Assembly (NCBI GenBank): GCA_027002825.1
Contig: JALWZG010000083.1
Span: 1 to 44,158 of the forward strand
Direction of reading: 5' to 3'
DNA from: Caldifarciminota bacterium
GTDB taxonomy: Bacteria; Hydrothermota; Hydrothermia; LBFQ01
Length of the DNA: 44,158 nucleotides
Part shown: piece by piece, positions 1,443 through 42,875 of the stretch
Position numbering within the stretch: the stretch's first letter is position 1
How the letters are laid out: each line of letters starts with the position of its first letter
Program-made: the position numbers and the translations under genes
The notes under the pieces: generated by a model
The model's database searches: none
Told to the model about the DNA's origin: nothing
Seen by the model: the letters and a program-made list of their open reading frames with translations, nothing else

Positions 1443-2682
1443 CCCTCAAACGTCTCTTGAGGTTTACGGCCTCGGCCGTGTCCCCCTTCAGTAGGTTCAA
1501 ATACACCAGGGCGTAAAGGGCCTTGGGGGAAAACCTCTCATCTCTGATGGAATCCGCTATGAACCTCCATATGCTGTCGGCGGCCTTCATATCCCCGAGG
1601 TAAAAGAAGTATATCTCCGCCTTCCTGTAGACCTTTTCAACGTCCTTTGCCGTCTGGAGCCTGCGCCACTCGTCAAGGATCACCTTCACCTTTTCCGCTT
1701 CGGACCTCCACCTTCCGGACGCCCCTCTGTACACCCTGTCAAACTCAAGGGCCGCCCCGTTGTAATCCCCCTGGAGCAGCTTGAGCCTCCCCATGAGCAA
1801 CCTCGCCTCCCACTTCTCCTCCGCGGCGCTGTTGGCGGACCTCTCAAGGTGCTTCAAAGCGCCGGACGTGTCCCCCTTTATCAGAGAGATCCTCGCCAGT
1901 TTAAGGGCCAGTCTACCCGCCTCGGCGGAGTTCGGCGGGTGGTCTATGGAGGAGTAGACCTTCTCGGCCTCATCGTATTTCCCGGATAGGAAGAGTATGT
2001 CCCCCCTCTTCTCCTCCGCGAGCTTCCTCTCCGAGGGCTTGAGCTCCAACTCCAGGTACTCGTTCAGGAACCTCTCGGCCGTGTCCGGCTCCTTTAAGGC
2101 CGTGTAAACGTCAACGGCAAGGAGTAGGAACTTCTTGTATATGGGATTCTTCTTGCCCAGACCCGCCATACGGGACAGGTAATGGGCAGCCCCCCTGTAG
2201 TCCCCGCTCATGTACCTCGCGTAGGCCAGCCAGTATAAGGCCTCCGGGGTGCGTACATCACCGAGGGCGTCTGAAACCCTGTGTCTGAACCTCGGATCAA
2301 GGGCGTATACCCTCGCCAGTTCAATCCTGGCCCTCTCCGCCAGGGGATGGGTGGGGAAGTATGTCAGGAACTCCTCAAACTTTTTGGCCGCCTTTTCGTA
2401 CTGACCTTTACGGGAATAGGCGAGTCCGAGGTAGAAAATGGCGTCCGGTAGGTACTTTGAGTGGGGATAGTACTTTATCAGGTAGGCCGCCTTCACCTCA
2501 AGGGAGTCGTATTTGGGCTTGAGGTTGAGTGTGTCCCCCTTCCTCTCCGCCCTCTCTATCTTTTTGGCGAGCCGCCGTAGGTTGTAATAGGTGTTGAAGT
2601 ACGCCCCCAAGTTGGGGTTCGCGCAGGTCAAAAAGGGGGCGGCCATCCCGACGGATAACCACCCCCACACCTTCACCCTCAT
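1387..2682 (-). CDS. Tetratricopeptide-repeat protein (BamD/YbgF-like, secreted or outer-membrane associated)
   Basis: 431 aa ORF with repeated TPR-like helices (YLPDAIFYLGLAYSRKGQYEKAAKKFEEFLTYFPTHPLAERARIELARVY); N-terminal signal; ATGA overlap with the upstream gene. Confidence 0.75.
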   Translation of the reverse strand: MRVKVWGWLSVGMAAPFLTCANPNLGAYFNTYYNLRRLAKKIERAERKGDTLNLKPKYDSLEVKAAYLIKYYPHSKYLPDAIFYLGLAYSRKGQYEKAAKKFEEFLTYFPTHPLAERARIELARVYALDPRFRHRVSDALGDVRTPEALYWLAYARYMSGDYRGAAHYLSRMAGLGKKNPIYKKFLLLAVDVYTALKEPDTAERFLNEYLELELKPSERKLAEEKRGDILFLSGKYDEAEKVYSSIDHPPNSAEAGRLALKLARISLIKGDTSGALKHLERSANSAAEEKWEARLLMGRLKLLQGDYNGAALEFDRVYRGASGRWRSEAEKVKVILDEWRRLQTAKDVEKVYRKAEIYFFYLGDMKAADSIWRFIADSIRDERFSPKALYALVYLNLLKGDTAEAVNLKRRLRDEYPNSGFHRLVSDLLGI

Positions 2683-3680
2683 CTTATAAGGAGTTTGTAG
2701 GTCCTCCTACCCTCTTTTACCATGTAAAGTCCCCTGTTGAGGCGTACAGCCCCATCTCCGTAGAAGACCACCTTTCCGGAGACGTCGTAGACGGTGACCC
2801 TGTTCCGGAATCTGACGAGGCCGTCGGCGATGTAGAACCCTTCCCTCTCGGCAACCTCCCTTTCGGCCACACCCACCTGTGTGTAGTCCACCATCTCGTT
2901 GACGGACCAGCTGAAGACCTCAGCCGTCACGAAGAAGGGTGTGAAAAGGGCGTACTGATAGGTTGAATCCTTTATGAGGCCTATACCCGGCCTCCAGTAC
3001 ACGTAGTAATCCCTGATGAGCGTATCCGACCAGGACTCGGAGGAGTTGCCAGCCTGACTGTAGACAAGGGAGGACCAGAGTTTGGCTCGTATGGCCACGT
3101 ATATCGTGTAGACGCTGTCAAACGTACCCGCCGGCACGGTTAGAGTCCCCATGGAAAGCACCTTAACCGTGTCCAAAAGGAAGACCATCGTGTCCGGGGT
3201 GGAGTAGTTCCTGTCCCCGTCCACGTCCGCCGTGACGGTGTCCCCTGCTATTCCGAGTGTCCAAGATGCCCCAACGCTCAGGGGTGTCCTTATGGCAAGC
3301 ACGTCCACCTTTTTGAAGTACACGCCTTGGGTGGCGTTGGAGTCCGTGCCGACTATCATCAGGCGGTGCATGTCATTCCCGACCTCGTAAACCGTGTCCA
3401 CGTAAACCATGGTATAGTTCGTATCGCCGCTCACGTAGTTCATCCTGAGTATCCCCCTGCCGAGGTTGCCCGAATACGTGAACTCCTGGTTCACCTGAAG
3501 GGTTTCGGCCAGTGTGAGGTTGACCGAGGCCGATCCAGTGAGGCTGCTGTAAGTTGAATCGTACTCCCATCCCTCGTACATACCCTCGGCTCCGACCCTT
3601 ATGCCGAGGTAGTTGAGGGCCTGTGCGTTCAGGTATCCCACGGAAGCGCCCATCAGAAGAGCAGCCAAAACGTACCTCAT
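2679..3680 (-). CDS. Secreted protein with C-terminal Por/T9SS-like sorting domain
   Basis: Signal peptide MRYVLAALLMGASVGYLNAQA; C-terminus VTVYDVSGKVVFYGDGAVRLNRGLYMVKEGRRTYKLLIR resembles type A sorting domains. Confidence 0.7.
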   Translation of the reverse strand: MRYVLAALLMGASVGYLNAQALNYLGIRVGAEGMYEGWEYDSTYSSLTGSASVNLTLAETLQVNQEFTYSGNLGRGILRMNYVSGDTNYTMVYVDTVYEVGNDMHRLMIVGTDSNATQGVYFKKVDVLAIRTPLSVGASWTLGIAGDTVTADVDGDRNYSTPDTMVFLLDTVKVLSMGTLTVPAGTFDSVYTIYVAIRAKLWSSLVYSQAGNSSESWSDTLIRDYYVYWRPGIGLIKDSTYQYALFTPFFVTAEVFSWSVNEMVDYTQVGVAEREVAEREGFYIADGLVRFRNRVTVYDVSGKVVFYGDGAVRLNRGLYMVKEGRRTYKLLIR

Positions 3681-10969: not shown

Positions 10970-11724
10970 TAGAGACCTCCATAGTCGGGGGGGAGTTTGG
11001 GCATTTCGTCCTCCTGAACGCTTTAAAGTGGAGGGTGAACTACGTTTTTATACGGGTTGAGGGTGAGGAACACGAGCGTCTTGTGAAGGTGTTGAAGGTC
11101 CGACCCCTCAGGGAGGGTGAAGACCTGAGGAGGGCCACCTTTTTGAGAGCGGCTACGGAGGGTGAGGTGAAACGTATGCTTCTGAACATGGTAAAGGGGG
11201 TGATCTGGGAGAGGGGCCTGAGGGCGAAGATCGTGGGTGGGGAGTTTGACGTCCAGAGAGGGGTACTCTCCGTGGAGTGTGTCGTTGAACCCGGAGACAG
11301 GGATACAAAGAGGGGTGTTAAGAAGTTGGCGTCCACCCTTGCCAAACTCCTGCACGTGAGGGTGGAGTTTGAGTTCGTGGAGAGCCACACCTACGCGGCC
11401 AAAGTCGGATGGTTGGGGAGATGTGGCCTTGAGCTCTGCTGCCACCTCTGGTTGAAGGACCTGCCCAGCGTAACCCAGGACATGGCCAGAAGACAGTACC
11501 TCTTCGCCGCCCCGGATAAGCTGACAGGGGCGTGCGGTAGGCTTCTGTGTTGCCTCGCCTTTGAAATGCCGTTTTACAACCTTATGGCCTCACGTGTTCC
11601 CAAGCTCAACTCCGTGGTAGAGACCGAGAGGGGGAGGGGAAGGGTGGTTGAGGTTAACCTAATTGCGGGGTATTACACGGTGAAGTACGAGAACGGCCAA
11701 AAGGAGAGGTTTGAAATTGAGTGA
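10966..11724 (+). CDS. ricT: PSP1-domain / RicT (YaaT)-like iron-sulfur regulator; start probably GTG 10966 rather than the listed 10882
   Basis: [40 protein letters not shown]; Cys motifs CGLELCC and [16 protein letters not shown] overlap with infA stop. Confidence 0.88.
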
Positions 11725-12520
11725 AAAGCTGAACGTCCTATGGGAAAACAACGGTGAATTCCTGAGGAGGTTGGAGGGAAAGCTTGAGGAGACGGCGAGA
11801 TGGTTGAACATACCGACCTATCTCATAAAGGGCAAGAGGATAAGGGCCATTTCTTCCCATCTGAGCTGTGAGGTTTACGGGGTTGATCTGGACACGGCCG
11901 TCCTCTCCGGATACGTCCTTGAGCTCATACACGCCGCCTCACTCGTCCACGACGACATAGTGGACGACGCCCAAACGAGGAGGGGGGGAAGAACGCTGAA
12001 CTTTTTGTTCTCAACAAGGAGGGCCGTCCTCATAGGGGACCTCATCTTCACCAAGGCCTTGCGTGATACCGCCCGAAGGGATCTGAACCTCTACCTGAAG
12101 GCCATGTCCGAGACGGTCTACAAAATGTCCTACGGCCAATACCAGGAGGACATCACACCCTTTGAGGATTTTGACGAGCATTTGTACCTCTCGGTCATAT
12201 ACAACAAGACGGCCTCCCTATACGAGCTGGCCTTCGCCTCAGGTCCGCTCATAGCCCGTTCCCCCAACCCCCATATGGCCGAGGCCGGAAAGTACTTCGG
12301 CATGGCCTTTCAGATACTGGACGATTGCGACGATTACGAGGAGGATGAGGGTAAACCCACACTACCCCACATATACTCCAATATGGGGATTGAGGACCCG
12401 CACGGTGCGGCGATCTCGCTCGCCGCCTCCTATTTGAGGAGGACAGAGTGGGAGCTTGATAGGGCTGGTGTAAAGGGGTATTTTGAAGACCTTCTGGACT
12501 ACATGTGGTCCAGGATATGA
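11711..12520 (+). CDS. Polyprenyl (FPP/GGPP/octaprenyl) synthetase family protein
   Basis: VHDDIVDDAQTRRGGRT first Asp-rich motif; GMAFQILDDCDDYEEDEGKPT second Asp-rich motif; TTG start. Confidence 0.92.
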   Translation: MKLSEKLNVLWENNGEFLRRLEGKLEETARWLNIPTYLIKGKRIRAISSHLSCEVYGVDLDTAVLSGYVLELIHAASLVHDDIVDDAQTRRGGRTLNFLFSTRRAVLIGDLIFTKALRDTARRDLNLYLKAMSETVYKMSYGQYQEDITPFEDFDEHLYLSVIYNKTASLYELAFASGPLIARSPNPHMAEAGKYFGMAFQILDDCDDYEEDEGKPTLPHIYSNMGIEDPHGAAISLAASYLRRTEWELDRAGVKGYFEDLLDYMWSRI

Positions 12521-15282: not shown

Positions 15283-16908
15283 ATGAAGGTCAGAAATTTG
15301 AAGCTTCTGCTCGCGGTATGGACGGTGCTGGGATGGGCGGCCGGGCTTTCAGCCCAATCCTACGAGCCTTACAGTCCCCAGGATCCCGAGTGGCGCCAGG
15401 GGCGCCACGACTACAAGAAAACGGCTAAGGCGCCCTGGAGGTGTGGCACACCCGCCACGGTTGCGAAGACCTACTCACGTGAAGACCCCAACAACGCCTC
15501 TCTTTACGTGACAACCGCCCGGAACGACTCCGATGACACCACAGATATTTTCTATACCGGCGAGGATAGAGGTTGGTTGGCCGGAGGTCCGAACACGTGG
15601 CTTGAAGGGGCGAACATAGGATCTGCGATATGCGATAACGAAATCTGGCCGGATTTCGGCACGGGAGAGTGTGTCCTCACCACCAACAGGGTTGGCTTCT
15701 GTCCAGCAGTGGAGGAGCCGGATTGGTTTTGGAACGATTGGGAGGCTTACATAGTCAAGATAAACTTCAGCTGCAACGAGGCCTTCAGACGCGGTTTCGG
15801 TGAGAACGACAGCAGAGATGAAAGATCCAACATGACCATCATAGACATAGACCGCGACGGGATAGCCGAGATATACTGGGTCCAGGATAACGACCTCTAC
15901 ATGTTCAGGGAGAACATCACCTCCTGGTCTCCCTCGTGGAGCGTTGGCCTTCCCAGCGACGGTGGGGACCCCGTCATAGGGGACTTTGACGGAAACGGCA
16001 ACTGGGACGTATGTGTCCCACTTGATAACGGCACCGTGAGGTGTTATAACGCGGCCGATGGCTCTTACCTGTGGTCCGGAACCCCACCCTGTGGGTTCTT
16101 CAACACCCCCTCAGGTAACGAAGACTGCTGTCCCTCTGAGTGGAAAACCTCTCTCATGGCCTGGGACCTTGACAGCGACGGTGCGGACGAACTGGTTATA
16201 GTTGGAAACGGATGCGTCTCCGCCTACGATGTGCCTACATGGAACCAGCTCTGGCGTGTTAACGTAGGGGCGAGTAAGGCGGGAGCGATGGGTGATCTTG
16301 ACGGGGACGGCCTCTACGATGTGGTGGTGAACCGCAACGGCACGGTCACGGTCATAGACGGGCAGAGCGGCAGCATAATAGCCACCTTTACGGAAAGCAC
16401 GGAGGGTTGTAGCGCTCCCACGGTTGCGGATGTGGACGGGGACGGTATCTGGGACGTTGTCCTCGCGTGTACCCAGCCCGTCGCATGGTCAATGGCCAAC
16501 GGATGGACGACCAGGATTTGGGAGGGCGCAGACAACGCCCCTTACACCATAACGGGAGACCTGGTCGTATCACGCCTCACGGACAACAGCCTCCAGCTGG
16601 TCTTCGGTGATGCCTCCTGTTTTGTCTCGCAGTGGGTGTGCGACGTGGCGGCGTTTGTGGAAGGTGGAGACGGTGGAGAGAACGAGCTCTCGGCGGAGGA
16701 GAGACCCTCACGGGTGGAATCCCCCGCTATAGAGGTTCTGGAGGACGGTGTGAGGGTCAAGGGCTACAGCGGTGAGGTTGTGGTGTACACCCCGGACGGC
16801 TCCCTGGTCAAGCGCGTGAGGGTTGAGGGAGAGGCCTACATCCGTCTTGATAAGGGCGTCTACATCCTGAAGATCGGCACGGCTGCGCAGAAGGTTGTGG
16901 TGCGCTGA
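15283..16908 (+). CDS. Secreted FG-GAP/VCBS-repeat protein with C-terminal sorting-like domain
   Basis: Signal peptide; DxDxDG repeats (DIDRDGIAEI, DFDGNGNWDV, DLDSDGADELV, DLDGDGLYDV, DVDGDGIWDV); C-terminus LDKGVYILKIGTAAQKVVVR; SD AAGGAGGGAGC. Confidence 0.85.
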   Translation: MKVRNLKLLLAVWTVLGWAAGLSAQSYEPYSPQDPEWRQGRHDYKKTAKAPWRCGTPATVAKTYSREDPNNASLYVTTARNDSDDTTDIFYTGEDRGWLAGGPNTWLEGANIGSAICDNEIWPDFGTGECVLTTNRVGFCPAVEEPDWFWNDWEAYIVKINFSCNEAFRRGFGENDSRDERSNMTIIDIDRDGIAEIYWVQDNDLYMFRENITSWSPSWSVGLPSDGGDPVIGDFDGNGNWDVCVPLDNGTVRCYNAADGSYLWSGTPPCGFFNTPSGNEDCCPSEWKTSLMAWDLDSDGADELVIVGNGCVSAYDVPTWNQLWRVNVGASKAGAMGDLDGDGLYDVVVNRNGTVTVIDGQSGSIIATFTESTEGCSAPTVADVDGDGIWDVVLACTQPVAWSMANGWTTRIWEGADNAPYTITGDLVVSRLTDNSLQLVFGDASCFVSQWVCDVAAFVEGGDGGENELSAEERPSRVESPAIEVLEDGVRVKGYSGEVVVYTPDGSLVKRVRVEGEAYIRLDKGVYILKIGTAAQKVVVR

Positions 16909-17640: not shown

Positions 17641-19515
17641 ATGCTTCTCCTCCTGGCCCATTTCAACGTGGTAGAGCTCTGGAAAGCACCGGAGGATCTT
17701 TCCAAACACAAACCCGTCTTTCCCATGTGGGAGTCCCCCACACTCCCGCCCTTGGATGTCAGGAAGTACACCCTGAGTTTTACCGTCCTGAACGGTTATC
17801 TCTACAAGGCGGAGGTGACGCTTGACATATCACCGAGGTGGAGTGTTGACTCGGCCGCGTTTGACTTTTACGGGTACGGGGTTGACAGTATCACCCTGAA
17901 CGGCAACCCCGTCCCTTTCAGCACGGGTGGTGGCGTCGTGTTGGTGCGCTTCCCCACATCCCTCTCCGTAGGCGATGTTTACTCCCTGAAGTTCTTCTAC
18001 TCCGGCGATCCCTCCAGCGCCCGCGCGGAATGCCCCTCCTTCACGAAGGGGATTTACGTGAGGTCCGACGGGAGCTTTTTCACGCTGAGCTATCCCGACG
18101 GTTTCAGATGTTGGGTCCCATCCCTTGACAGGCCTTACGAAAAGGCCGATGAGGGTGTGGAGTTCTTCATAGAGACGGATACGGCGTTTGTGGTGGTCGC
18201 AAACGGGGTCCTTTTGGACACCTTGAGGACGGGAACTACGAAGGTGTGGCACTTCAGGCACTCCCATCCCATAGCCACCTACCTCATATCCATGGCCGGG
18301 AAGGATCTGGCGGCCAACTCCTGGACCTGGAATTACGGTCCCTTCAACATGCCCGTTCTCGCGTGGGTTGACCCCTCGGACACATCCCTTCACTGGGGTG
18401 AAAGTCTTACACAGATGTTGACGGCCTTTTCCGACAGGTTTGGGATCTACCCCTTCTACGACGAGAAGTACGAGCAGAGCGTTGTTATGGGCGTCTTTTC
18501 GGGAGGTATGGAACATCAGACGAGCGTGCATTTCTCCTCCACGTTCGGCGAAGACGTGCAGGCACACGAGCTGTGCCATCAGTGGTGGGGGAACGCCGTG
18601 GGATACGGATCGTTCAAGGACGTATGGCTCGGAGAGGGGTTTGCGACGTACTGCGAGGCCCTATGGCAGGAGAGTACGGGGGGTCTCAGCTCCTACCTGA
18701 ACTACTACAAAACCCGTATTGAAAACGTCTTCTTCACGTACGCATCCAATCCCGGAAAGAGTGTATACGATCCCGGCCCATCCGTAGGGGACATCCTTTC
18801 GGTTTACACGTACCACAAGGGTGCGGCTGTGTTGCACATGCTGCGCTACGTTCTGGATAAGGACACGTCCCTTTTCTTTGGGGCGTTGAGGTATTACAGG
18901 AGCAGGCACGAAGGCTCTTACGCTCTCACCAGTGACTTCGTAAACGACGTAGAGACCTACACGGGCAGGGACTTGGGTTGGTTTTTTGAGCAGTGGGTGT
19001 ATGAGGCGGGATGGCCGGTTTACAACGTGAGGTGGAACAGGTTTGATGAGGGTGGGAGTTGGAGATTGTTGCTGAGGGTTGAGCAGGTGCAACCCGTTGG
19101 CGCTCCTACTTTCAAGATGCCGATAGAGGTTGAGGTGTTCACACCTTCTGGGGATACGACGGTAGTGATATGGGACAGTCTTGACGTTCAGCACTTCTGG
19201 ATAACCCTTAGCGATAGGCCAGACAGCGTGCGATGGGATCCGGACAACTGGGTGCTTGAGGAGCATACGGTTTCGTTTGATCCCGCTCTGGGCATATCCG
19301 AACACATGAACCAGGAGGCCGGGAGGGATATAGTGATAAGATTTGTGGGAGGGGGTGTAGTAATAACTGCGCCGTTGGGTGGGGAGGTAATAGAGATATA
19401 CGACAGGGGTGGTAGGAGGGTGGCGAGGGGGTTTGGGAGGTTGAAGGTGAATCTCAGGGGTGGGGTTTATTACGCCGTGAGCGGAGCCAAGGTGAAGGCC
19501 TTCGTGGTGAGGTAA
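17641..19515 (+). CDS. M1-family metallopeptidase with C-terminal sorting-like domain
   Basis: GVFSGGMEHQTSVHF and AHELCHQWWGNAVGYGSFKDVWLGEGFATYCEALW (HExxH-18-E); C-terminus LRGGVYYAVSGAKVKAFVVR. Confidence 0.95.
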   Translation: MLLLLAHFNVVELWKAPEDLSKHKPVFPMWESPTLPPLDVRKYTLSFTVLNGYLYKAEVTLDISPRWSVDSAAFDFYGYGVDSITLNGNPVPFSTGGGVVLVRFPTSLSVGDVYSLKFFYSGDPSSARAECPSFTKGIYVRSDGSFFTLSYPDGFRCWVPSLDRPYEKADEGVEFFIETDTAFVVVANGVLLDTLRTGTTKVWHFRHSHPIATYLISMAGKDLAANSWTWNYGPFNMPVLAWVDPSDTSLHWGESLTQMLTAFSDRFGIYPFYDEKYEQSVVMGVFSGGMEHQTSVHFSSTFGEDVQAHELCHQWWGNAVGYGSFKDVWLGEGFATYCEALWQESTGGLSSYLNYYKTRIENVFFTYASNPGKSVYDPGPSVGDILSVYTYHKGAAVLHMLRYVLDKDTSLFFGALRYYRSRHEGSYALTSDFVNDVETYTGRDLGWFFEQWVYEAGWPVYNVRWNRFDEGGSWRLLLRVEQVQPVGAPTFKMPIEVEVFTPSGDTTVVIWDSLDVQHFWITLSDRPDSVRWDPDNWVLEEHTVSFDPALGISEHMNQEAGRDIVIRFVGGGVVITAPLGGEVIEIYDRGGRRVARGFGRLKVNLRGGVYYAVSGAKVKAFVVR

Positions 19516-35137: not shown

Positions 35138-35141
35138 AGAT

Positions 35142-35165
35142 GGGGGGCGCAAGCCCCCCTTTTTT
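35142..35165 (+). terminator. Intrinsic terminator of the rpoBC operon, GNRA loop
   Basis: GGGGGGC-GCAA-GCCCCCC-TTTTTT immediately 3' of the rpoC stop. Confidence 0.92.
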
Positions 35166-35170
35166 ACCGC

Positions 35171-35851
35171 TTAAACCCCCAGATCCCCGTCTTCAACCGC
35201 TGTGCCTATCACGACCACATCGGCACCGGCGGCGAAGTAATCCTCCACCTCCCCCTTCCACCTTATGCCTCCACCCACGATAAGGGGCAAACCCACCTCC
35301 CCCTTTACGGTTTTGACCGCCTTGAGGGGAACGCTGAGTATAGCCCCGGAGCCGGCCTCAAGGTATACGGCCCTAAATCCGAGGTAAAGGGCCGCGAGGG
35401 CGTGGGCCAGTATCAGCTCCGTTTTTTCCCTCGGAATCGGTTTTGTGCCGCTTACGAACTCCACAGCTGTGTAAGCCCCACCCTCCACGAGGATGTACGC
35501 GGTTGGGATCACCTTCAGGTTGTACCGCTTCACAATCGGAGCGGCCTTAACGTGTTCCCCTATCAGGTACTCCGGGTTCCTGCCGGAGATAAGAGAGAGG
35601 AAGAGAACCCAATCGTAATGCGGGCAAAGCTGATAACAGGAGCCGGGAAAGAGTATCAGGGGGAGGGAAACCCTTTCCTTGAGGGATTTAACCTTATCGC
35701 ATACATCCCCCTCCACGAAGCTGCTTCCCACGAGGACGGCCCCCAAGGGCAGCTCCCCTTTCAGCCTCTCCAACCTCTCAAGGAAGTCCTCAACCCCCAA
35801 CCTGTCGGGATCGTAGAGCAGCCAAACACTCTTCCCCTTGAGTACGTCCAT
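35171..35851 (-). CDS. Geranylgeranylglyceryl phosphate synthase (GGGPS/PcrB) family protein
   Basis: LILFPGSCYQLCPHYDWVLFLSLISGRNPEYLIGEHVKAAP; IPTAYILVEGG; AVYLEAGSGA; LPLIVGGGIR; GADVVVIGTAVE. Confidence 0.9.
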   Translation of the reverse strand: MDVLKGKSVWLLYDPDRLGVEDFLERLERLKGELPLGAVLVGSSFVEGDVCDKVKSLKERVSLPLILFPGSCYQLCPHYDWVLFLSLISGRNPEYLIGEHVKAAPIVKRYNLKVIPTAYILVEGGAYTAVEFVSGTKPIPREKTELILAHALAALYLGFRAVYLEAGSGAILSVPLKAVKTVKGEVGLPLIVGGGIRWKGEVEDYFAAGADVVVIGTAVEDGDLGV

Positions 35852-35852
35852 T

Positions 35853-37256
35853 TCAGAGTCCGAGGAGCGTTCTCATAAACTCCAAAAGACCGCTGGGGGC
35901 CAGACCGAAATAGACCACCCCCGCAAAGGCTATGACCATGGCAAAGAAGACGGAGGGCTTCAGCCTCGGCACGACGGAGACCTGAGGTGCAAATCCCAAG
36001 GCGTAGAACACTGGCCTTACGTAGTAGAACAGCGAGATGACACCGTTCAGCAATGCCCACAGGACGAAGCCCATATATCCCTCTTTCAGCACGGAGGAGA
36101 AGAGGTAGAACTTACCCACGAAACCGGCCGTGGGGGGCAATCCGGCCAGGGAAAGCATGAAAACGGCCAGGAAGGCGGTCTGAAAGGGCGCCCTCTTTAA
36201 AAGTCCCTTGTAATGTGCGAGGTCACTGCCCTCCTCCCCGACGGAATGCACCACCGCGAACGCACCCAACGTCATCAGGGTGTAGACCACCAGGTAAAAT
36301 ACGGCCGCCCCTATACTCTCCTCCGTTCCGACGCCGAAGGCGAGCAGCACATAACCCGCGTGGGATATGGTTGAGAAACCGAGCATTCTCTTTATGTTCT
36401 TCTCGGCAAGGGCTGCAAGGTTTCCGACCGTCATGGTTATGACCGCGAGCCATATCATCAGATCCCCCCATACGGCGTATTGCCTTGCAAAGGCCTCAAG
36501 AAGGAGGTTCACGAGAAACCCAAACGCCGCGGCCTTTGAGACCGTGGCGATGAACCCACCGAGGGCGGAGTGGGTACCTCTAAAAACCTCAGGGGTCCAG
36601 AAGTGGAACGGAACCGCGGAGAGCTTGAACCCCATACCCGCTATGATCATGGCAAAAGCCGTCAAAAACAGAAGGGAGTCGCTCAGGGATTTTATCTCAT
36701 AAACGTCACTCCTGTAGATTGTGGGAAAGTGCATGGTGCCGTAAACCCCGTAAACAAGGGTCATGCCCATGACGATCAGCGTGGAGGCCAACACGGAGAG
36801 GAGGAAAAACTTCATCGCCGCCTCAACACCCCTCTTATCCCATGTTATGGCCATCTGCCCGATCAGGGCGAAGGAGAATATCTCAAGGGCCAAAATGAAG
36901 GATATGAAATGGACGGATTTCACCAGCACCATAGCTCCGAGGACGGCCGAAAGGAGTAGGATGTGAAACTCGCTTCTCCTCTCCCATCCTATGAGGAGGG
37001 TTATGAACGCCCCCAGAATTATAACGAGGTCAAAGGCCCTCGCCAAGGGGGTTATGGCCAGCATTTTGAAAGCTTCCCCCGAGTTGAAAAGGTTGAAGTA
37101 CACCATCAGCCCCACCACAATCGTTGAGAAAAGGGCAAATGCGGCTATTATCCATTTCTCCCTCTCCACCACGACGTCCAGGAGCAGGGCTACCAGAACG
37201 GCAAGGGCCGTTGTGATTTCCGGTAGGATTAAAAAGGTATCCTTCAGGATCTCCAT
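35853..37256 (-). CDS. nuoN: NADH-quinone oxidoreductase subunit N (start 37256 rather than the listed 37319)
   Basis: MEILKDTFLILPEITTALAVLVALL; FKLSAVPFHFWTPEVFRGTHSALGGFIATVSKAAAFGFLV; KRMLGFSTISHAGYVLLAF; LSLAGLPPTAGFVGKFYLF. Confidence 0.95.
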   Translation of the reverse strand: MEILKDTFLILPEITTALAVLVALLLDVVVEREKWIIAAFALFSTIVVGLMVYFNLFNSGEAFKMLAITPLARAFDLVIILGAFITLLIGWERRSEFHILLLSAVLGAMVLVKSVHFISFILALEIFSFALIGQMAITWDKRGVEAAMKFFLLSVLASTLIVMGMTLVYGVYGTMHFPTIYRSDVYEIKSLSDSLLFLTAFAMIIAGMGFKLSAVPFHFWTPEVFRGTHSALGGFIATVSKAAAFGFLVNLLLEAFARQYAVWGDLMIWLAVITMTVGNLAALAEKNIKRMLGFSTISHAGYVLLAFGVGTEESIGAAVFYLVVYTLMTLGAFAVVHSVGEEGSDLAHYKGLLKRAPFQTAFLAVFMLSLAGLPPTAGFVGKFYLFSSVLKEGYMGFVLWALLNGVISLFYYVRPVFYALGFAPQVSVVPRLKPSVFFAMVIAFAGVVYFGLAPSGLLEFMRTLLGL

Positions 37257-37265
37257 AGGGCGGTT

Positions 37266-37271
37266 ATTATA
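37266..37271 (-). promoter_or_regulatory. -10 box TATAAT, 9 nt before ATG at 37256
   Basis: Reverse complement TATAAT-AACCGCCCT-ATG. Confidence 0.65.
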
Positions 37272-37342
37272 CTGGGGAAAGGGCGAACACAAACGCCACC
37301 CCTTGGTATGTTGTTCCACCCAAACCGGCCACGGTTCGGAAC

Positions 37343-38782
37343 CTATCTCAGCAGAACCTTCACCCTCTCCGTCCCCGATGTTATGAGGTATACACCTGCG
37401 GGCAGTTTTACGGTTATCTCCTTACCCCTGGCGAGAACGCTCCCGTCGGGTGATATGATCAGGGACTCCCGCCTGGAGTTCACCTTTACGGTTCTCCCGA
37501 ACACGTCAACCCTCAGACCTGTCCTTTCGGAGGAAACGCTCGTGGGCCTTGGGGTTGCCCGGAGCGCGAGATAGGCGTTTACGAGACCGTATCCGTAAAA
37601 GTAATCCTTACCCAACTCCCCCATATCCACAGTCGTTGAAAGTATAACGGCTTTGACGGTATCCGGACTCAGGTTTGGGTTTACGGAGAGGATGAGGGCC
37701 GCCACACCCGATACGTGGGGAGTCGCCATGGAAGTCCCGTCGGCGAACATGTAGAGGTCGTTATATGGGACGGTTGAAAGGATCTTACTCCCCGGTGCGA
37801 CCACGTCCAGAGCCGAACCGTAGTTGCTGAAATCAGCCCTTTTCCCCGATGTATCTATTGCACCGACGGCCAGAGCCTCCGGATAGGCGGCGGGGTAGTA
37901 CACACCGCTCATACCATCGTTCCCGGAAGCGGCGACCGCCAGCGCCCCCTTATCCACGCTGTCCCTCGCATAGATTATGGCGTCTCTGATGATGTCAGCG
38001 GGTGAAGACGCCCCAAGGCTCAGGTTTATCACCCTCGCCCCCTGATCGGCACACCACCTCACACACGAGGCTATGTCCTCGCTCGTACCGCTCCCCCCCG
38101 ACATGGCCCTGCAGGAGAGTACGGAGACCTGGGCCACACCGGATATCCCCTTTGAGTTGTTCATAACGGCCGCAATTGTGCCTGCCACGTGGGTCCCGTG
38201 CATCTCGTTTATATCGGCCGGATAGGGATCGGAGTCCAGGTCAACGAAGTCATAGCCGCCGGCGTAATTTCCGGATAGGTCCTCGTGGTTGTAATCCACC
38301 CCTTCGTCCACAACGCACACCTTCACGGCGGAGTTTCCCCTCTCTATGTCCCAAGCCTTGTCGGCGTAAATGGCCCACAGGCCCCAGAGGTCGCTCCCCA
38401 TATGGGGATCGTTGGGCCAGTAGAGGGTTCTGTAGAGCATTACGGGTTCTGCGAAGAGGACGTCCTCCCTTGTGTTCAGGGCGTCAAGGAGGGTTTTAAC
38501 CCTTTCCACATCACCTTTGAAGGACGAGACGTCCAGGACGTAGGTGTCGGGGTACTTTCCCCTCCTGAAGGGTAGGGAGAAGTGGGGTGCGGTGCCGTTT
38601 CTGAGCTTCACTATGACCTCTTTACCGTTCCAGTTCTCCCAGTAATCCGGAGAACCTTTGAGGGTTGAATACCCCGGAACATCCCTCCTTTCCTCCATCC
38701 TCATCTCGTAGAGGACGGCGTCCAGATCCATTTCAGGCTGCAGGGGAAGGTTCGGACGGAAGAAGGTGAGCAGAAACATCAC
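37343..38782 (-). CDS. Subtilisin-like S8 serine protease with C-terminal sorting-like domain
   Basis: VKVCVVDEGVDYNHEDL, MHGTHVAGTIAAVMNN, ADGTSMATPHVSGVAALIL triad motifs; C-terminus LPAGVYLITSGTERVKVLLR. Confidence 0.96.
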   Translation of the reverse strand: MMFLLTFFRPNLPLQPEMDLDAVLYEMRMEERRDVPGYSTLKGSPDYWENWNGKEVIVKLRNGTAPHFSLPFRRGKYPDTYVLDVSSFKGDVERVKTLLDALNTREDVLFAEPVMLYRTLYWPNDPHMGSDLWGLWAIYADKAWDIERGNSAVKVCVVDEGVDYNHEDLSGNYAGGYDFVDLDSDPYPADINEMHGTHVAGTIAAVMNNSKGISGVAQVSVLSCRAMSGGSGTSEDIASCVRWCADQGARVINLSLGASSPADIIRDAIIYARDSVDKGALAVAASGNDGMSGVYYPAAYPEALAVGAIDTSGKRADFSNYGSALDVVAPGSKILSTVPYNDLYMFADGTSMATPHVSGVAALILSVNPNLSPDTVKAVILSTTVDMGELGKDYFYGYGLVNAYLALRATPRPTSVSSERTGLRVDVFGRTVKVNSRRESLIISPDGSVLARGKEITVKLPAGVYLITSGTERVKVLLR

Positions 38783-41249: not shown

Positions 41250-42875
41250 ATGAGGAGGTTTTTGGGGTACTGCGTCGGGGTTTTGAGGCCCGATGAGTTT
41301 ACCTTTACGAGTACGGCGCCGCCAAGGCTGGGCGAGTTTGTCATAGCATCTTACAGGGATGGGGAAAAGGACTTTGAGGTTTTGGGAATCGTCAGCAGAA
41401 TAGAGAGGTTTGACAGGTTCTTGCACGCGGACAACTACCCGGAACACGTTGAAACCATACGCAAGATCTCACCCGTAAAGGGGGTTTTCAAAACGAGGGT
41501 GACCGTCCTCGGGGAACTTGGGCATGACGGTAGCCTGAAGAGGTTGAAGTACCCACCCATGCCGGGCGCCCCCGTTTTCTCCGCCCCTGCGAGCGTCCTG
41601 AAGAGGGTTTTCGGAAATCCGGATGATATCAGAACGGCCAAGATAGGCACGCTTCTGACGTCCGAGAGCGTTGAGGTGGGCGTGGACATAAACCAGATAG
41701 TCTCCCGTCATCTCGCCGTTCTGGCCGTTACTGGAGGGGGGAAGTCCAACGCCGTCTCAGTCCTCTTGGAGGAAATGGCGAAGAAGAGGATAACGGCCCT
41801 GATAGTGGACGTCCACGGTGAGTACGTTGACGCGGACTTTTATGGTCCGAACGGTGAGAGGATCACAAATCCCATAGACGTCAGAATAGACCTGACACAG
41901 CTCTCTGCGAGCGACATAGCCACCATTTCCGGTATTGACTTTGAGAGGAGCAACCGGCAGTACTACGTCCTGATGGAGGTGGTGGATAGGCTGAAAGAGG
42001 CCCGAAAAGGCGTGGTGATAAGCGATGTGATGGATATAAACCCCTTTGAAGAGGGACTTCCCTCAGGTCCACCTTTTATAGAGCATATCATATGTGTCCT
42101 GCGCGCCCTCATAAGGCGTAAGAGCAGTAAAGCTTGGGACGAGGGGATCAGGTGTGGTTCTCTGAGCGTAGAGGATCTTGAGAGACACTTCGGGGATTTC
42201 GTTGATGTGGTTGAGAAACAGGAGCTCATAGGAACGTACATCCGTCTCGTCAACCTAAAGGGTAAGCTCGGAGAAAGGCTCAAGGACAACGCCACGCCGA
42301 TAGTGGATATAATAGGCGGTGTGGGTCTGGGGAAGATCAACGTCCTCGATCTCAGGGGGTTTGACTATGAGGCTATGGACGTAGTCGTATCCCACACCCT
42401 GCTCTCAATCCTCAAGGAGAGGAAGAGGTACGTCCAGACACGTCAGGGAAAGCTGCCCTTGCCCGTTTTGGTGGTCATAGAGGAGGCCCACATCTTCGCT
42501 CCAAAGGGTGTTTCCACGAAGACCAAATACGCCCTCTCAAAGGTCGCCAGGGAGGCGAGGAAGTTCGGCGTGGGTTTGGCCCTGGTCAGTCAGAGACCCA
42601 AAGGTTTGGATGAGAACGTCCTCTCACAGATGAACAACTGGATAATACTGCGTATAGTTGAACCTGAGGATCAGAGACACGTTCAGAGGGCATCCGAGAC
42701 CCTCAGCGCCGATCTCCTGCAGTACTTACCCTCCTTGAACCCCGGAGAGGCGATTCTCATAGGCCCATTTGTAAAGGTCCCCCTCCTGGTGAAGTTCAGA
42801 CTATCACAGGCCAGAAAGGCCGGTCATGATATTGACGTGGTGGGGGAGTCTTTGAGGTTCTTCCAGGGTAATTGA
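41250..42875 (+). CDS. HerA-like ATP-binding protein (DUF87/HerA-FtsK superfamily)
   Basis: HAS-barrel-like N-terminus; LAVLAVTGGGKSNAVSVLLEEM Walker A; ALIVDVHGEYVDADF; LPVLVVIEEAHIFAPKG Walker B; LVSQRPKGLDENVLSQMNNWIILRI. Confidence 0.93.
   Translation: MRRFLGYCVGVLRPDEFTFTSTAPPRLGEFVIASYRDGEKDFEVLGIVSRIERFDRFLHADNYPEHVETIRKISPVKGVFKTRVTVLGELGHDGSLKRLKYPPMPGAPVFSAPASVLKRVFGNPDDIRTAKIGTLLTSESVEVGVDINQIVSRHLAVLAVTGGGKSNAVSVLLEEMAKKRITALIVDVHGEYVDADFYGPNGERITNPIDVRIDLTQLSASDIATISGIDFERSNRQYYVLMEVVDRLKEARKGVVISDVMDINPFEEGLPSGPPFIEHIICVLRALIRRKSSKAWDEGIRCGSLSVEDLERHFGDFVDVVEKQELIGTYIRLVNLKGKLGERLKDNATPIVDIIGGVGLGKINVLDLRGFDYEAMDVVVSHTLLSILKERKRYVQTRQGKLPLPVLVVIEEAHIFAPKGVSTKTKYALSKVAREARKFGVGLALVSQRPKGLDENVLSQMNNWIILRIVEPEDQRHVQRASETLSADLLQYLPSLNPGEAILIGPFVKVPLLVKFRLSQARKAGHDIDVVGESLRFFQGN

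Follow-up and report, generated by a model that had tools for sequence, protein, structure and literature searches.

A group II GGGP synthase gene behind nuoN and candidate partner genes for archaeal-type ether lipids in a WOR-3 genome

The GGGPS locus and its junction with nuoN

We analyzed a stretch of 44,158 nucleotides (hereafter the window) from G000, a WOR-3 (Caldifarciminota/Hydrothermota) MAG of 1.72 Mb in 113 contigs that is 86% complete. Its named relatives are candidate division WOR-3, 'Thermotogota' and Candidatus Hydrothermota; NCBI now assigns WOR-3 and Hydrothermota to the phylum Caldifarciminota. The following features of the window were considered.

35171..35851, minus strand: GGGPS gene, group II GGGP synthase (PcrB superfamily), 226 aa, by profile, alignment and tree
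35853..37256, minus strand: nuoN, complex I antiporter-like subunit (TIGR01770, 2.8e-92)
35849..35855, minus strand: nuoN/GGGPS junction, TGA (35855-35853), A, ATG (35851-35849), read from the sequence
35140..35165, plus strand: G+C-rich hairpin with a T run behind it, located 3′ of rpoC in the interval where this gene and GGGPS converge, read from the sequence
11711..12520, plus strand: all-trans polyprenyl diphosphate synthase, 269 aa, with a DDIVDD motif (PF00348, 7.2e-39)

The first-pass annotation had recognized a GGGPS by the signatures LFPGS, YLEAGSGA and VGGGI. The open reading frame is real and lies on the minus strand, which that annotation did not state. ILFPGS, YLEAGSGA and VGGGI are all present in the 226-residue protein, which matches Pfam PF01884 (PcrB/GGGPS) with an E-value of 1.6e-30 and 105.9 bits (cut-off 23.9). 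Comparison of the gene between G042 and G040 gave a dN of 0.018–0.023, a dS of 0.25–0.28 and a dN/dS of about 0.07–0.09. This purifying selection indicates that GGGPS is a maintained gene.

The likely start of nuoN is at MEILKD, 21 codons inside the open reading frame 35853-37319, which is where the orthologues of the genus begin. At the other end of the gene the letters read CTC TGA A ATG GAC, so that a single base separates the nuoN stop from the GGGPS start, exactly as had been reported before, and translational coupling is expected from this gap. The arrangement is kept throughout the family, as nuoN and GGGPS abut or overlap in all eight family genomes examined (that of the window and seven others); in G036, a member of this family, the nuoN frame looks disturbed. 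The pairing was confined to the window's family. The link therefore looks lineage-specific, and the conserved coupling need not be functional. A functional tie between GGGPS and complex I found no support beyond the adjacency conserved in this one family.

Elsewhere in the window, a gene for a HerA-type helicase (41250-42875, plus strand; NF040937, 1.6e-90) is followed by a RodA/FtsW-type gene. In addition, exported-looking proteins encoded at 2679-3680 and 37343-38782 on the minus strand and at 15283-16908 and 17641-19515 on the plus strand share a similar short C-terminal stretch (G-VY...VVR/LLR), which resembles a sorting domain.

Classification of the GGGPS

Among solved structures, the closest match is the group IIb GGGPS of Flavobacterium johnsoniae (4jej, 1.3e-51), and the second is M. 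thermautotrophicus 4mm1 of the group IIa archaeal enzymes (2.8e-38); the B. subtilis PcrB structure matched with only 4e-8. Likewise, the heptaprenyl model NF003197 scored 22.7 bits (cut-off 260) compared with 238.6 bits for the best-matching model. The phylogeny was based on 65 rows, with B. subtilis PcrB and A. fulgidus GGGPS as group I references, both identical letter for letter to their PDB entries. In this tree the group I references separate from group II at a support of 100, and the window GGGPS joins its own family at 100. Together with members of its class and the WOR-3 families f20 and f22 it forms a clade (support 96) next to Bacteroidota. The nearest named kin by GGGPS are the WOR-3 MAGs S143_60 and S141_60.

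By alignment, Y119, Y163 and E165 are the candidate catalytic residues and T217, in the phosphate-binding loop, is the group II Thr; the roles of the catalytic Tyr/Tyr/Glu and of this Thr have been described (PMC9385802). F132 aligns with the position of the aromatic anchor, a feature associated with hexamers among group II enzymes. The F. johnsoniae enzyme, the nearest solved relative, belongs to the same larger clade but falls outside the WOR-3 clade and, unlike the window protein, has no aromatic residue at this position.

These results place the window protein in group II of the GGGPS, on the FCB-bacterial branch, which answers the question of group I or II raised by the first-pass annotation and sets the protein apart from heptaprenyl-type PcrB at 100. 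We infer GGPP as its C20 donor and G1P as its acceptor. The tree is consistent with a bacterial group II enzyme that has been passed on largely vertically in WOR-3. Thus, the description of the gene as an archaeal-type GGGPS homologue in a bacterium holds for the identity of the enzyme, but by the tree its type is the bacterial group II one common to FCB phyla and not a recent import from archaea.

Divergent homologues were also observed in the phylum; the alignment used to scan the collection for GGGPS was made without such divergent rows. In G032 (L133:5671-6384) and G033 (L134:3930-4610), which belong to family f2 of the same order, the GGGPS homologue is strongly altered, with the LSGRNPEYLIGEH region swapped for LNTYDYNYFHIEL, and the genomes are without strong matches to DGGGPS, GGR and G1PDH. 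These copies appear to be either degenerate or repurposed. In family f12, the GGGPS of G004 (L022) and G001 (L138) is long-branched and lacks two residues in the TKPIPR region; here the gene lies directly behind a GGR gene, and G1PDH and DGGGPS are found in the genome.

Partner genes in the genome and across the phylum

A search of the genome for an EgsA/AraM-type G1P dehydrogenase (G1PDH), a UbiA-type DGGGP synthase (DGGGPS), CarS and GGR, as proposed by the first-pass annotation, returned candidates for all but CarS. For CarS (PF01864) there was no match in the 86% complete MAG, and matches in the genomes of 27 relatives were weak. A lack of all downstream ether-lipid genes, which had been named as grounds for dropping the idea, was therefore not seen. 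The candidates are as follows.

Contig C104, L101:9439-10386: G1PDH, EgsA-like (NF002022, 1.5e-56)
Contig C79, L106:1956-2747: DGGGPS, UbiA superfamily (PRK12884, 6e-41)
Contig C66, L105:9357-10571: GGR (TIGR02032, 6.8e-63)

The G1PDH candidate reaches 191.9 bits with NF002022, below the strict cut-off of 413, compared with 57.7 for the glycerol dehydrogenase model. The same preference is seen among structures, where it matches the Pyrobaculum G1PDH 5fb3 with 2.2e-39 and the glycerol dehydrogenase 1kq3 with 6.8e-13, and the alignment shows conservation of the Asp/His/His positions that should act as metal ligands. Throughout the window's family, the gene overlaps or directly follows a gene for a DPM1/AglJ-like glycosyltransferase (L101:8729-10386, L110, L111, L115, L116 and L117); in families f4 and f9 (L036, L038, L120) its neighbor is a nucleotidyltransferase gene instead. 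Because of this nucleotidyltransferase neighbor elsewhere in WOR-3, and because 10 genomes possess G1PDH without GGGPS, the dehydrogenase and its G1P may also serve another product.

The best PDB match of the DGGGPS candidate is the M. jannaschii DGGGPS 6m31 (3.4e-23), and the protein contains two Asp-rich motifs, NDIFDVEED and DKEGD. Its score lies under the NCBIfam strict equivalog cut-off for DGGGPS, which the archaeal control genomes also fail to reach. In the tree it groups at a support of 96 with the M. jannaschii DGGGPS and with GGGPS-adjacent UbiA proteins of Cloacimonadota and Poribacteria, on a long branch. The G1PDH of the window's family likewise forms a clade on a long branch, in a tree without outgroup, and because of these long branches the exact placement of both proteins is unsure. 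The genome encodes eight UbiA-type proteins, and the candidate stands apart from the seven others in the tree, being not of MenA, CtaB, ChlG or DPRS type. The others resemble CtaB, MenA (two proteins) or the decaprenyl-phosphate phosphoribosyltransferase type or are fusions, and one is without type. UbiA-type prenyltransferases at L104:8421-9800 (459 aa) and L107:6128-8110 (660 aa) are unusually long, and frames of similar length occur in many members of the class.

GGR scores 213.1 bits with TIGR02032 and exceeds its cut-off of 158.8; the best PDB match is the digeranylgeranylglycerophospholipid reductase of T. acidophilum (3oz2, 1.3e-51). Comparison of G042 and G040 gave a dN/dS of about 0.10–0.12 for G1PDH and 0.03 for GGR. 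Thus GGGPS, G1PDH and GGR are all under purifying selection. The genome also carries the bacterial ester-lipid route, with PlsY (1.7e-55), three PlsC-family proteins and GpsA (1.1e-53).

The polyprenyl synthase noted earlier in the window is indeed present and is a possible supplier of GGPP. The genome contains two all-trans polyprenyl synthases, and the better-scoring one is located on C105. For this reason, and because chain length cannot safely be read from sequence, a role of the window synthase as dedicated GGPP source is unsupported. The gene is not linked to GGGPS.

To assess how often these genes occur together, we scored 147 genomes of the phylum for strong matches, with thresholds placed at the score gap. 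In the window's genus, each of GGGPS, G1PDH, DGGGPS and GGR is found in at least five of six members (GGGPS in all six, G1PDH in five). Among the 147 genomes we detected GGGPS in 89, a DGGGPS-type UbiA in 88, G1PDH in 66 and an over-cut-off GGR in 95; 47 genomes have all four genes and 34 have none. GGGPS co-occurs with DGGGPS (p = 8e-20, Fisher), GGR (p = 8e-12) and G1PDH (p = 4e-8), p-values that overstate independence since the genomes are related. GGGPS, DGGGPS and GGR are found without G1PDH in 24 genomes, including family f10 of the same class.

Based on coordinates, GGR lies directly 5′ of GGGPS in about 27 genomes from nine families; the window's own family is without this adjacency. 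The order DGGGPS-GGR-GGGPS occurs in some Poribacteria and the order polyprenyl synthase-DGGGPS-GGGPS in one Cloacimonadota genome. The recurrent GGR-GGGPS pair is a genetic argument for the reductase acting in this pathway in bacteria.

A predicted ether-lipid pathway and its rivals

Taken together, the group II GGGPS probably joins GGPP to G1P and thereby forms the first ether bond of an archaeal-type pathway for which this WOR-3 genome encodes the other core enzymes at other loci. We infer the substrate chain length, the use of G1P, catalysis and lipid production from the sequences. DHAP would be converted to G1P by the EgsA-like dehydrogenase (C104), and the window GGGPS would combine G1P and GGPP into GGGP. 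The UbiA protein on C79 would then add a further GGPP to yield DGGGP, which would be reduced by the GGR on C66. Since CarS is absent, head-group activation might proceed via the bacterial CDP-diglyceride machinery, as has been argued for Cloacimonetes (PMC7852524). Because GpsA, PlsY and PlsC are also present, we predict a membrane in which ester and ether lipids are mixed and in which both glycerol stereoisomers plausibly occur. Compared with the archaeal G1PDH-GGGPS-DGGGPS-CarS-GGR pathway, the WOR-3 genome has homologues for four of the five core steps, but it lacks CarS and carries GpsA, PlsY and PlsC.

Genes for archaeal-like lipid routes in FCB bacteria, mentioned by the first-pass annotation as a proposal, are known for Cloacimonetes (PMC7852524) and Fibrobacteres (PMC6431249). 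MAGs of Ca. Cloacimonetes, a group that could not be brought into culture and is the best-known candidate for such lipids, encode GGGPS (group II-type), DGGGPS and GGR beside an ester-lipid pathway and, as here, no CarS; enzyme activity was shown (Villanueva et al., 2020, PMC7852524). They possess no recognized EgsA/AraM-type G1PDH and their DGGGPS adjoins GGGPS, whereas the WOR-3 genome has an EgsA-like G1PDH and its GGGPS lies behind nuoN. A survey that covered WOR-3 reported single genomes with G1PDH, GGGPS and DGGGPS from Firmicutes, Actinobacteria and Fibrobacteres, but did not name WOR-3 among them (Coleman et al., 2019, PMC6431249). The Fibrobacteres Chitinispirillum and Chitinivibrio thus resemble our case, in a different phylum. 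The B. subtilis PcrB/AraM route shares the superfamily and the G1P chemistry but relies on a group Ib enzyme with a C35 donor and adds no second prenyl chain.

The 24 genomes with GGGPS, DGGGPS and GGR but without G1PDH, a pattern also seen in Cloacimonetes, leave room for a different, rather improbable explanation. GGGPS, DGGGPS and GGR could use G3P to make isoprenoid ether lipids, or could yield them in minor amounts or in a form other than phospholipid, and the EgsA-like enzyme could serve otherwise, for example by providing G1P for a surface polymer. Use of G3P in vitro was reported for Cloacimonetes (PMC7852524), and B. subtilis makes its G1P ether lipid in small amounts only (PMC13400652). 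The coupling of G1PDH to a DPM1-like glycosyltransferase in the window's family and to a nucleotidyltransferase in f4 and f9 would also agree with this explanation. It is opposed by the co-occurrence of GGGPS and G1PDH across the phylum and by the genus itself, which keeps both genes.

That the lipid genes are relics, or serve to break down environmental archaeal lipids, is very unlikely. Coleman et al. (PMC6431249) mention catabolic reversal as one option, and in G032 and G033 the strongly altered GGGPS is all that is retained, with no partner gene. However, the low dN/dS of GGGPS, G1PDH and GGR, the intact catalytic residues and the GGR-GGGPS linkage across nine families all argue against it. 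The fragmented MAG, with the four genes on four contigs, might suggest that archaeal sequences from the sample were binned with it, but this is hardly credible: the contig with GGGPS spans 44 kb and also carries bacterial rpoBC, tsf and nuoN, GGGPS is nested in the bacterial tree, other MAGs of the genus, obtained independently, contain the same genes (70–75% protein identity for GGGPS, up to 63% for G1PDH), and the contigs have a GC content of 0.53–0.56 compared with 0.555 for the window. Finally, the shared superfamily might point to a PcrB of heptaprenyl type that acts as in Bacillus, but this is ruled out by the tree (100), profile scores, structure matches and the group II Thr217.

The archaeal-type pathway with G1P as acceptor thus remains our preferred reading. 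In the main texts of openly readable papers we found no report of a complete gene set in WOR-3. New here is therefore what appears, from its genes, to be a complete set including a G1PDH candidate in a thermophilic WOR-3 family, an unusually complete and more testable addition to the known FCB cases. A further-reaching view, which we hold tentatively and at somewhat less than even chances, is that thermophilic WOR-3 would possess a true heterochiral membrane of G3P ester and G1P isoprenoid ether lipids, made by their own G1PDH, GGGPS, DGGGPS and GGR. The trait would be old in the phylum and maintained by selection, and it may be testable in strain sy37. This strain of the mostly uncultured WOR-3 group is in pure culture, grows at 70 °C and has a complete, public genome, and its relatives include hydrothermal MAGs; the main text of its description contains no lipid analysis (PMC12285271).

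An open part of the lipid-divide question concerns native archaeal-type G1P membrane lipids in any living bacterium and the stability of mixed membranes in nature. With a G1PDH candidate, a thermophilic lineage and a pure culture from the phylum at hand, the genomic suggestion could be turned into a direct lipid experiment, if sy37 carries the genes.
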